Origin: Actinomycetospora sp. NBRC 106375
GTDB taxonomy: Bacteria; Actinomycetota; Actinomycetes; Mycobacteriales; Pseudonocardiaceae
Direction: 5' to 3'
Length of the DNA: 64,000 nt
Assembly: GCF_030269665.1 (NCBI RefSeq)
Contig: NZ_BSTS01000009.1
Coordinates: 62,001 to 126,000 of the forward strand
How positions within the stretch are numbered: the stretch's first letter is position 1; each line of letters starts with the position of its first letter. Below, one piece after another: positions 28,994-31,335 of this stretch. The position numbers were made by a program, and so were the translations under genes. Under the pieces are notes generated by a model that saw nothing but the letters and a program-made list of their open reading frames with translations, was not told the DNA's origin and did not search any database.

Positions 28994-29239
28994 TCAGGTC
29001 GTGGTGCTCTGCTCGACGGCCGTGTCCTCGGGTCGACCCGCCTGCTCCAGACGACGCAGACGGGCACCGACGACGCCCAGGCAGATCCCGGCGGCGACCG
29101 CGAGGGCGACCGGGTACCAGAGCGCCGGTCTCGACGGGTCGTCGACGGCGTCGGCCCAGGTCCACCCGACCAGCGCGATGACCAGCAGCATCGCGGCCAT
29201 GAGCCAGCGCCGCAGCGAGGGGATCGCGGTGTGGTCCAT
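28994..29239 (-). CDS. small two-helix membrane protein
   Basis: An 81-residue protein (MDHTAIPSLRRWLMAAMLLV start) with hydrophobic segments at about residues 12-28 and 41-60, a charged linker and an acidic/Thr-rich tail. The family is not recognised. It is convergent with the dehydrogenase gene, with only 4 nt between stops, and lies 65 nt downstream of the tRNA gene on the same strand. Confidence 0.65.
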   Translation of the reverse strand: MDHTAIPSLRRWLMAAMLLVIALVGWTWADAVDDPSRPALWYPVALAVAAGICLGVVGARLRRLEQAGRPEDTAVEQSTTT

Positions 29240-29304
29240 GGCCTCAGGGTGACGGGCGCGACCGATCTTCGCCACGCGGCAGAGAGAGGACACCCTCGAC
29301 CGTG

Positions 29305-29379
29305 TGGGGCAGGTCGGGCTCGAACCGACGACCTGACGGATTATGAGTCCGCTGCTCTGACCAGCTGAGCTACTGCCCC
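29305..29379 (-). tRNA. tRNA-Met (CAU); tRNA-Ile(CAU) not excluded
   Basis: On the minus strand the 5' acceptor GGGGCAG pairs with CTGCCCC before discriminator A. The D-arm AGCTCAGCTGG, anticodon loop CTCATAA (anticodon CAU) and T-arm GGTTCGAGCCC are all present. CCA is not encoded. The CAU anticodon could belong to elongator Met or to lysidine-modified Ile; Met is the better guess. The nuclease cassette begins 62 nt beyond its 5' end. Confidence 0.9.
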
Positions 29380-29441
29380 CTCGGCGGCGAAGCGTACGAC
29401 ACGCGGGGGGTGTCGCCCGGGCTCGGCCGGGCCTGTGCCGA

Positions 29442-29510
29442 GCAAGATCTGGAACTGGTGAGCGGATGCTCCGCTCAGCGGAGCGGACGCTCACCAGTCC
29501 GAGATCTTGC
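29442..29510 (+). repeat. 69-bp palindromic element, copy A
   Basis: Begins GCAAGATCTGGAACTGGTGA and ends GAGATCTTGC, with centre TCCGCTCAGCGGA. It is itself an imperfect palindrome (about 6 mismatches per arm) and lies directly upstream of the nuclease gene, so it may also carry that gene's promoter or insulate it. Confidence 0.7.
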
Positions 29511-29557
29511 TCGAGATCGCATGGATCCGGCGGGCCGGCGGCTGCGTCGAAGCCCGT

Positions 29558-30493
29558 GTGAGCACCGATGCGGGGCGCGGGGCGTTCCGGGCCTTGATCC
29601 GCCGCCAGCACGGCGTCGTGAGCCTCGAGCAGGCGAGGGCTGCCGGCTACACGCGCCAGGCCATCGCCCGCAAGGTCGAGGCGAAGGCCTGGTTCCCGGC
29701 CGGCCCGCGGACATACCAGGTGGGCGAGCACGTCGAGACGCCCACGTCGCGGGCGATCGCGGCCCTCCTGTCGCTCGGCCCCGACGCGACGCTCGTCGGG
29801 ACGTCGGCCGCGTGGTGGTGGGGCTTCCGGGACACCCCGCCGTCGCGGCACCAGGTCGCCGTCCCCCGGGACCGCCGACCCCGCCCCCGGGAGGACCTCG
29901 ACATCGCACTGAGGACCGTCGACCCCGCCGACCGCACCCGGGTCGCCGGCGCCAACGTGACCGTCCGGGCACGAACGGTGCTCGATGCCGTCGTGGTGCT
30001 CGGTCTCGACGACGGCGCGCGGGTCGCCGACCGGGCCCTCCAGAAGGGCTCGCTGAGCATCGAGATGCTGCGGGCAGCGCACACGCGGACATGCGGGCGA
30101 CGCGGCGCACCCCTCGGCGCCGAGCTGATCGCGCTCGCGGACGGCGGCGCCCGGTCGTGGGCCGAGCGGGAGCTGCACGCGGGGCTGCGCGGAGCCGGGT
30201 TCCCCAGGTGGACCGCCAACACCGGGATCGTCCTGCCCGGCTTCGGGCGAGCGGTCGGTGACGTGGTGTTCGACGAGGAGAAGGTGATCGTCGAGGTCGA
30301 CGGCTGGGCCTACCACCGGGACCTGCGGGCCTTCCTCCTCGACGGGCCCCGGCAGTCCGCGCTGGTCGCCGCCGGCTGGGTGGTCCTGCGGACCCACTGG
30401 TACGAGCTGCGCGCCGGCCCCGGAACCTTCCTGGCCCGCCTCCGCGCGACGCTCGCGGCAAGATCTGGAATTGGTGAGCAATCGCTCCGCTGA
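29558..30493 (+). CDS. AbiEi-like/DUF559 domain protein, putative PD-(D/E)XK nuclease
   Basis: About 311 residues from GTG 29558; a TTG at 29507 would start inside the flanking repeat and is less likely. The N-terminal winged-helix part (IRRQHGVVSLEQARAAGYTR) resembles type IV toxin-antitoxin AbiEi antitoxins. The C-terminal part is a DUF559/Vsr-like nuclease fold: SWAERELHAGL, then Asp of GDVVFDE near 235, the VIVEVDGWAYH pair near 246-248, and GWVVLRTHWYEL. No adjacent AbiEii-type toxin gene exists. The last 11 codons and stop lie inside palindrome copy B, so gene and repeat are physically tied together. Confidence 0.8.
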   Translation: MSTDAGRGAFRALIRRQHGVVSLEQARAAGYTRQAIARKVEAKAWFPAGPRTYQVGEHVETPTSRAIAALLSLGPDATLVGTSAAWWWGFRDTPPSRHQVAVPRDRRPRPREDLDIALRTVDPADRTRVAGANVTVRARTVLDAVVVLGLDDGARVADRALQKGSLSIEMLRAAHTRTCGRRGAPLGAELIALADGGARSWAERELHAGLRGAGFPRWTANTGIVLPGFGRAVGDVVFDEEKVIVEVDGWAYHRDLRAFLLDGPRQSALVAAGWVVLRTHWYELRAGPGTFLARLRATLAARSGIGEQSLR

Positions 30494-30526
30494 GCGGAGC
30501 ATCCGCTCACCAGTTCCAGATCTTGC
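30458..30526 (-). repeat. 69-bp palindromic element, copy B (inverted)
   Basis: Inverted copy of the element at 29442-29510. Its left half encodes the C-terminus of the nuclease (ARSGIGEQSLR and stop at 30491-30493); the right half is downstream. As a stem-loop it could also terminate transcription. Confidence 0.7.
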
Positions 30527-30527
30527 C

Positions 30528-30801: not shown

Positions 30802-30993
30802 ATGAAGAAGAGCACCATGCGTGTCGCGCTCGCCGCCGTCGCCGCACCCGCGGCCATCACGGCGTTCGCCGCCCCGGCCGCCAACGCCGTCGAGCTCGCG
30901 CCCTACGCGCACCAGCTCGACCACGACGTGGCGGACACCGAGGCCGAGGTCGGCGCGGTCGTCGACGACCTGGGCCTCGAGGCCGCCGAGTAA
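30802..30993 (+). CDS. small secreted peptide
   Basis: A 63-residue precursor: KKSTMR positive start, a hydrophobic Ala-rich core and a signal peptidase site after AAPAANA (about residue 29). The mature part is about 34 residues, acidic (many Asp/Glu) and without Cys. GGGAAGGA lies about 8 nt before ATG 30802, and a strong stem-loop follows the gene at 31042-31083, so it appears to be a self-contained transcription unit. No family was recognised. Confidence 0.6.
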   Translation: MKKSTMRVALAAVAAPAAITAFAAPAANAVELAPYAHQLDHDVADTEAEVGAVVDDLGLEAAE

Positions 30994-31182: not shown

Positions 31183-31335
31183 ATGCGCCTGGGACGTCGA
31201 CTCTCCGCCGGTATCGCCGAGGACCCGCCAACGCCCGCCCCGGAGGACGCGGCGGACACGGGTGAGATCGCCATCCCGGCCCACGAGATCACCGCGGAGC
31301 GCCGTGAGCCGGCCGAGCAGCTGGTCGATCGGTAG
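31183..31335 (+). CDS. 50-residue ORF, possibly the 5' part of the next gene
   Basis: ATG 31183 has CGGAGG 5 nt upstream and reads MRLGRRLSAGIAEDPP to TAERREPAEQLVDR before TAG 31333. The acidic, Pro-rich product has no recognisable domain. It runs into the following gene, which lies in the +1 frame and has no convincing start of its own, so the two may be one gene split by a frameshift. Confidence 0.35.
   Translation: MRLGRRLSAGIAEDPPTPAPEDAADTGEIAIPAHEITAERREPAEQLVDR

Follow-up and report, generated by a model that had tools for sequence, protein, structure and literature searches.

Palindrome-flanked genes for AbiEi-Vsr-type nucleases recur in actinobacteria and may form a homing-like system aimed at their own dispersed palindromes

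Organization of the locus

The window analysed was a stretch of 64,000 nucleotides from Actinomycetospora sp. NBRC 106375 (genome G000 below), in which one gene is enclosed by two long palindromes. The features were located as follows (positions in the window).

29304-29379, minus strand: tRNA-Met(CAT), a neighbour only; the same site in some relatives holds a lone palindrome or none
29442-29510, no strand: palindrome A, 69 bp, upstream flank of the element; pairing extends to 29439-29513
29507-30493, plus strand: nuclease gene, an ORF of 328 codons from a TTG; the likelier start is the in-frame GTG at 29558
29558-30142, plus strand: AbiEi-type domain, residues 18-212; proposed palindrome reader (match to 6y8q, Z 13.4; PADLOC AbiEi models; partial correlation with the palindrome)
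30149-30469, plus strand: Vsr/EDxHD-type nuclease domain (DUF559/MTES_1575), residues 215-321
30458-30526, no strand: palindrome B, 69 bp, inverted copy of A (63/69)

Each palindrome was imperfect, with 29 of 34 pairs complementary. Palindrome A agreed with the reverse complement of B at 63 of the 69 positions and the outermost 44 were identical. The first 33 nt of B formed the last 11 codons of the nuclease gene, and the stop codon (30491-30493) also lay inside B. This arrangement had been described in an earlier reading of the window made from its letters without database searches (hereafter the sequence-only reading) and was confirmed, with the stop codon added. The GTG at 29558 was taken as a likelier start than the TTG because in a relative (L093) no start codon is possible in that frame before the matching GTG.

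Five overlapping long ORFs between the palindromes had no family match in the Pfam scan. Apart from the tRNA, no RNA-family match reached the gathering score, and most of the matches were to microRNA models; the PHROG search gave no match and no sign of phage origin. The neighbours scanned were a 3-hydroxyacyl-CoA dehydrogenase, a PhoD-like protein, an acyl-CoA dehydrogenase and a TetR protein, in addition to the tRNA; no AbiEii nucleotidyltransferase was found among them. Small ORFs at 28996-29244 (minus strand) and 30802-30993 had no Pfam family match. To the right of the element, the opening DNA of the small ORFs at 30802-30993 and ~31183-31335 recurs beside tRNA-Met in some relatives (e.g. 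L107, L112, L116), and the ORF at 30802-30993 has, by eye, a signal-peptide-like start.

The tRNA-Met gene lies 62 bp from the element; it is the 5' end of the tRNA, not a 3'-end integration site, that faces the element. Integration targeted to the tRNA was ruled out on this ground and by the presence of homologues at many other places. The tRNA, which the sequence-only reading had counted as part of a mobile cassette, is thus an incidental neighbour: relatives carry the same kind of gene elsewhere, for instance between two genes that, from our reading of the ORFs, we take to be glgP and glgX.

Domains, predicted fold and selection

The window protein gave weak Pfam matches to AbiEi_4, AbiEi_1, DUF559 and MTES_1575 and to nothing else. 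The DUF559 match (20.8 bits) was above the gathering score of 20.6, and the MTES_1575 match (20.9 bits) was below the cut-off of 38.2. Among 53 relatives, DUF559 was matched in 43 and MTES_1575 in 47 at E 0.001. PADLOC AbiEi models also matched the window protein (best 1.5e-20).

The protein was modelled with AlphaFold2 (pLDDT 89.4). In the model, residues 18-212 matched the AbiEi antitoxin (PDB 6y8q) with a Z score of 13.4. Residues 215-321 matched 3hrl, an endonuclease-like protein (Z 13.7), the catalytic domain of the homing endonuclease I-Bth0305I (3r3p; Z 12.9, rmsd 2.1 over 96 residues) and Vsr (1cw0; Z 10.7); by sequence, the 3r3p profile match was weak (E 0.38). Matches to the structures of XisH (Z 5.1) and TnsA (Z 7.1) were within background and were rejected. 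E220, D252 and H270 were invariant in the 53 aligned relatives, and E263 and D265 were kept in at least 90% of them. The predicted fold is an AbiEi domain followed by a domain of the Vsr/EDxHD-homing-endonuclease kind, in agreement with the Pfam matches and with the AbiEi-like and DUF559/Vsr-like protein proposed from the letters. A dN/dS of 0.07-0.32 in 12 gene pairs indicates purifying selection, and the protein is therefore kept functional.

Recurrence of the palindrome-flanked gene

Homologues were present in all 18 Actinomycetospora genomes. A hairpin scan around them revealed long palindromes at or near the stop codon, often with a sister upstream, and their sequence differed between protein groups. 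From 150 gene loci of Actinomycetospora and Mycobacteriales (L025-L094 and L125-L204; one without a match), 100 non-redundant full genes were kept after removal of partial, interrupted, duplicate and contig-edge copies. Upstream and downstream flanks matched at a local score threshold of 25 for 73 of the 100 genes, against 54 of 2000 mismatched pairings; 27 genes were below the threshold. The 91 neighbouring control genes were scored with an earlier, slightly shorter window only; like for like, that window gave 58 of 99 genes against 0 of 91 controls. It had missed many mycobacterial palindromes upstream because the start was projected too far upstream.

A hairpin score of at least 12 in at least one flank was obtained for 76 of the 100 family genes, for 5 of the 91 control genes (scored with the shorter window) and for 4 of 1000 base-shuffled flanks (3/500 upstream, 1/500 downstream); the palindromes thus exceed chance. 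Downstream hairpins, searched from 45 bp before the stop codon, numbered 86 in 168 genes, with a median span of 51.5 bp; 76 of the 86 started at most 25 bp past the stop.

The search was then extended to the class. At E 1e-15, with 9 candidates scored per genome so that counts are lower bounds, a homologue was found in at least 189 of 246 genomes and at least 87 of 101 genera. Of 69 loci taken from this search, some from the window's own order, one at a contig edge was dropped; flanks matched at 40 of the remaining 68, against 1 of 1000 mismatched pairings, and 28 fell short. The pairing of palindrome and gene is recurrent and not a one-off, and defines a large actinobacterial family of palindrome-flanked genes for nucleases of predicted AbiEi-Vsr type.

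Co-diversification of palindrome and protein

The palindrome sequence differed between protein subfamilies. A first Mantel test and a clustering, both on whole flanks, were confounded by shared neighbouring DNA; the clustering was discarded and the test was replaced by a comparison restricted to the hairpins and to pairs of genes with unrelated (non-syntenic) neighbourhoods. Palindrome similarity then correlated with protein identity in Actinomycetospora (r 0.53, 1011 pairs) and in Mycobacteriales (r 0.45, 398 pairs), each with 0 of 2000 permutations reaching the observed value.

In 41 Actinomycetospora genes, identity in residues 20-130 predicted the palindrome with nuclease identity held constant (partial r 0.54, 0/2000 permutations), and identity of the nuclease domain added nothing (partial r −0.16). 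The palindrome follows the AbiEi-type domain and not the nuclease domain, which points to the former as the reader. These sequence correlations strongly suggest that the protein recognizes its palindrome, and they favour the earlier proposal of a nuclease recognizing its own palindromic ends. The dyad is kept in the window's subfamily, with 80% of cells paired and a covariation score of 0.189 against 0.146 in shuffles; pairs changed on both sides were not in excess of shuffles. One gene, that of G017, is 76% identical to the neighbouring subfamily yet has a different palindrome.

Dispersed lone palindromes

Further copies of the repeat were found in G000 on contigs C39, C13 and C1, and diverged copies in other genomes of the genus. 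This dispersal had escaped the sequence-only reading. The 18 genomes were searched on both strands with R1, a covariance model of the window's subfamily; 150 candidates were scored per genome, so that counts are lower bounds. In the genomes whose gene is intact and belongs to the window's palindrome cluster or to the neighbouring one, R1 gave at least 22 (G000), 16 (G001), 20 (G004), 12 (G014), 85 (G009) and 60 (G013) hits, against 0-11 in the other 12 genomes for the same number of candidates; several of the counted genomes had supplied training copies for R1, which biases the comparison in part, and the two top genomes, G009 and G013, are outside the training set. Among the 12, G012 had 6 hits with a gene remnant, and G017 had 10 hits with a gene that carries another palindrome.

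For a second subfamily, a pattern was drawn from the gene-flanking copies of G016, G000, G015 and G012, and it found 44, 38, 25, 13 and 13 arms in the genomes with a gene or remnant (G000, G015, G016, G012 and G014, respectively). Without the gene, 6-9 arms were found in three genomes (G001, G003, G008) and none in ten. The reversed control pattern gave 1 hit over all 18 genomes. In g39, a genus of the same class and another family (ten genomes), one cognate pattern found 36 arms in G223 and 0-4 in the nine others. The other pattern found 22 and 31 arms in two genomes with flanked genes and 5 in a third (G162). G073, of the same genus, had 21 arms of that other pattern, in about 10 dispersed palindromes, with no nuclease homologue near the 8 sites checked (L470-L477); orphan populations therefore exist. 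Over the two subfamilies and 18 genomes, lone palindromes mostly track the cognate gene. Copies beside unrelated genes, which the sequence-only reading had named as the mark of an ordinary terminator, do occur; they are numerous chiefly in genomes that carry the cognate gene, and the repeat is therefore not reduced to such a terminator.

The gene context of lone copies was classified with a crude ORF rule, as raw counts without background. In the second subfamily (subfamily 9), 72 copies were read with their flanks, and 67 were left after removal of those in two gene-bearing loci: 32 were between convergent genes, 22 between tandem genes, 2 between divergent genes and 11 were unclear. In another subfamily (n = 20), the numbers under the same rule were 6, 10, 2 and 2.

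Concerted change and site comparison between relatives

Many subfamily-9 copies are at orthologous sites, where the genomes nevertheless differ at two diagnostic arm bases; what a lone copy has at these bases tends to be what the gene-flanking copies of its own genome have. Four genomes had a clear gene-flank variant; G012 was mixed and was set aside. Of the 104 lone arms in these four, 60 carried the variant of their own genome and 11 one of the three variants from the other genomes; none of 10000 label shuffles did as well. The arms were of unlike variant in 24 of the 72 copies, as if these were half converted. Such concerted change can be due either to conversion in place or to selection keeping many sites matched to the protein.

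The tRNA-Met site was compared by eye in 13 relatives, of which six were not comparable. A lone palindrome of the same family was seen in G014, G012 and G004. The recognisably same sequence of G007, G015 and G016 held no palindrome, and G003 had another hairpin-like stretch. Counting the palindrome-gene-palindrome form of the window, the site thus has three allele states. At the glgP-glgX site, the gene was present in ten of the 18 genomes (G000, G001, G002, G005, G006, G009, G010, G013, G014 and G017), and broken in G012 and G015. A lone palindrome and no gene was seen in G003, G004 and G016; G007, G008 and G011 were assigned to none of these classes. Between flanks 95-96% identical to those of G001, the G003 sequence is just 68 bp long and holds a palindrome from a different subfamily. 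Within one protein group (74-91% identity), the gene at this site is in one orientation in G002, G005, G010 and G013 and in the opposite one in G009 and G017, as would follow from recombination between inverted palindromes. At one convergent site, unrelated palindromes were found in different species, and likewise at a second site.

The lone sites were mostly common to G001 and G003, with 7 shared and two seemingly specific to G003 that carry a diverged copy in G001. Insertion junctions were sought at four lone sites thought to be polymorphic between these genomes, and neither a junction nor a target-site duplication was defined there; the two with a diverged copy in G001 were among them, a third was L291, where other hairpins were seen in four further genomes, and the fourth was L299. 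Decay towards lone copies is suggested by nuclease genes that are broken or truncated but have kept palindromes at their side (G015:C56:117501-118449, G012:C160 and G012:C95). In Mycobacteriales, many gene copies are at one and the same conserved locus, which, with the lone sites mostly shared by G001 and G003, is evidence against frequent jumping. Overall, turnover looks slow and unlike that of an active transposon. A cassette that is selfish or mobile, as in the sequence-only reading, thus fits the three allele states at tRNA-Met and the concerted change of lone copies, and sits less well with the long-conserved mycobacterial loci and the shared lone sites; mobility itself is inferred.

Discussion

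The known systems closest to this one are REP-RAYT (REPtron/TnpA-REP) and the related TIRYT 'TIRtrons', for which the excerpted sources describe a palindrome-flanked gene, dispersed lone palindromes and co-evolved enzyme and repeat (PMC8266576; PMC3733652). As in REPtrons, the gene here is flanked by copies of a dispersed palindrome and enzyme and repeat co-evolve; the REPtron enzyme is a HUH tyrosine transposase, whereas here it is a protein of AbiEi-Vsr type. Y1_Tnp (PF01797) matched 0 of the 18 genus genomes and 5 of 14 control genomes, so transposition by a Y1 enzyme was ruled out. No conserved GTAG (or CGTC) tag, which REPtrons have at one end, was found within the 69 columns of a 26-sequence alignment of the window's subfamily. 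REPs are 20-40 bp long, and the palindromes here are longer, as the median of the downstream hairpins indicates. One REP class was reported in 2013, in the part of PMC3733652 consulted, to be without a dedicated transposase.

With the EDxHD homing endonuclease I-Bth0305I, the window protein would share, in its predicted structure, the catalytic fold with conserved E, D and H. The target on which I-Bth0305I dimerises is very long, nearly 60 bp, according to the excerpt of PMC3943268; here a long palindrome is the proposed target. Unlike in homing endonuclease systems, there is here no intron, intein or interrupted conserved gene, and the dispersed palindrome is whole on both sides. AbiEi, the antitoxin of the type IV toxin-antitoxin system AbiE, binds inverted repeats at its own promoter in the accounts excerpted from PMC3985639 and PMC11062541, the former describing arms that extend to as much as 23 bp and are separated by N3. 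By analogy, these operator repeats look much like the palindromes here. The AbiEi-type domain resembles that antitoxin in its modelled fold and differs in being fused to a nuclease, in having no AbiEii among the neighbours scanned and in having cognate palindromes on both sides and dispersed. A Vsr-like REase domain is common to the Vsr, MTES_1575 and DUF559 nucleases in the excerpt of PMC3710099 and to the window protein, to which the AbiEi domain and flanking palindromes are added. Among the open-licence PMC papers listed, for the broad queries the best 10 to 15 of 132, 914 and 473 entries, there was no description of the system and no link between DUF559 and dispersed palindromes. We regard it as a new kind of system, for which the closest working model is the REPtron, though it is not one.

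The best explanation, on which we are evenly divided between belief and doubt, is a homing-like, palindrome-targeting AbiEi-Vsr nuclease. The AbiEi-type N-terminal domain, probably as a dimer, would bind one arm each of the long subfamily-specific palindrome (mostly ~40-75 bp), a step proposed because of the co-variation of palindrome and protein and the known AbiEi operator. The C-terminal Vsr/EDxHD-type nuclease would nick or cut DNA at bound palindromes, as its fold and the invariant residues of its active site suggest. With another copy as template, repair of the break would then spread and homogenise the palindrome genome-wide and would sometimes carry the gene with its two flanking palindromes into a lone palindrome site. 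Overall, the process would be homing-like with its own dispersed repeat as target.

Stated for the whole class, the claim would be of a selfish or domesticated element in which a homing-type nuclease with an AbiEi reading head takes its own dispersed palindrome as target and drives its spread and homogenisation, dozens of incompatible subfamilies diversifying in step, several per genome; we give this claim an equal chance of standing or falling. The computation shows that the flanking recurs, that palindromes are specific to subfamilies and that dispersed copies mostly track the gene, and it shows concerted change and purifying selection. Several observations count against the homing-like reading. 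Turnover is slow in appearance, no target-site duplication was defined, many mycobacterial copies keep to one conserved locus, and flanks were below the threshold for 27 of 100 genes and 28 of 68 class-wide loci. Immunity by interruption of the target was not seen; both flanking palindromes are whole and an occupied site is therefore unprotected, unlike in classical homing. Lone copies without the gene (G001, G003, G008, G073), the few arms in G162 (5) and the few R1 hits in G012 (6) also count against it, as does the G017 gene with its different palindrome, and the concerted change could also come from selection on putative binding sites.

That last possibility belongs to an alternative which we hold unlikely but worth serious weight, a regulon serving the host. 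Here the protein would be a domesticated regulator or 3'-end factor, the lone palindromes operators or terminators matched to it by selection, and the nuclease would trim DNA or RNA there. Most classified lone copies are at gene 3' ends, unrelated palindromes occupy one convergent site and a second one in different species, the protein is under purifying selection, and AbiEi proteins are known operator-binding repressors in the excerpt of PMC3985639; selection for binding could also yield concerted change. Against this, site content at the same place turns over between subfamilies, congeners differ in copy number from 0 to about 40, the active site of the nuclease does not vary, and a regulon gives no reason for a gene bracketed on both sides. 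We consider distinctly unlikely a REP/RAYT-like transposition by another enzyme, in which the palindrome would fold as a single-stranded DNA hairpin, the nuclease would cut its foot and the strand would insert elsewhere, the gene-bearing form being the autonomous copy. The palindrome-flanked gene, dispersed lone copies and cognate co-evolution are marks of a REPtron, and the few lone copies between divergent genes (2/67 and 2/20) and the kept dyad pairing also agree with it. The genus genomes, however, have no Y1 enzyme, the enzyme resembles, in its predicted fold, an AbiEi-Vsr fusion, and pairs changed on both sides were not above shuffles. No AbiEi-Vsr-type nuclease is known to rejoin DNA. 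In addition, the palindromes changed in place at orthologous sites, which is easier by conversion than by fresh insertion. The scarcity of lone copies between divergent genes allows the homing-like, the REP-like and the regulon readings.

An AbiE-type module, either a type IV toxin-antitoxin or one for phage defence, with operators duplicated around the gene by happenstance, is improbable in our judgement: the PADLOC AbiEi models and the predicted AbiEi fold agree with it, but no AbiEii nucleotidyltransferase was found among the neighbours scanned, just one ORF scanned between the palindromes matches any family, and such a module predicts neither dispersed copies nor the symmetry of the flanks. 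Ordinary intrinsic terminators and chance are the most improbable of the readings. Palindromes often overlap or follow the stop codon, as 76 of the 86 downstream hairpins do; the matching palindromes upstream, the subfamily specificity, the gene-tied dispersal and the control genes refute terminators and chance as a full explanation, and termination may be a side effect.

The palindrome-gene pairing has the look of a copying system, selfish or domesticated, that appears to be undescribed. If the homing-like reading is true, a second enzyme class, unrelated to tyrosine transposases, is tied to dispersed palindromes; the REP systems with a known enzyme use tyrosine transposases in the excerpts of the papers cited above. 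It would also give a function to many 'DUF559' and 'AbiEi' genes, given the homologues in at least 189 of the 246 class genomes sampled. Its dozens of natural protein-site pairs could make a recognition code for long palindromes readable, and genome-wide concerted change of short bacterial repeats could be studied here in a tractable system.

Palindromes were also seen in groups. In G009, four palindromes of the neighbouring subfamily are in a row about 143 bp apart downstream of a nuclease gene, with two upstream (L032, 1001-1497 and 2461-2661). At L299 (G001:C20, ~336900-337210), L016, L017, L019 and L022, lone palindromes of 2-3 subfamilies are direct neighbours within a single intergenic region, as though these places drew in or tolerated additional ones.
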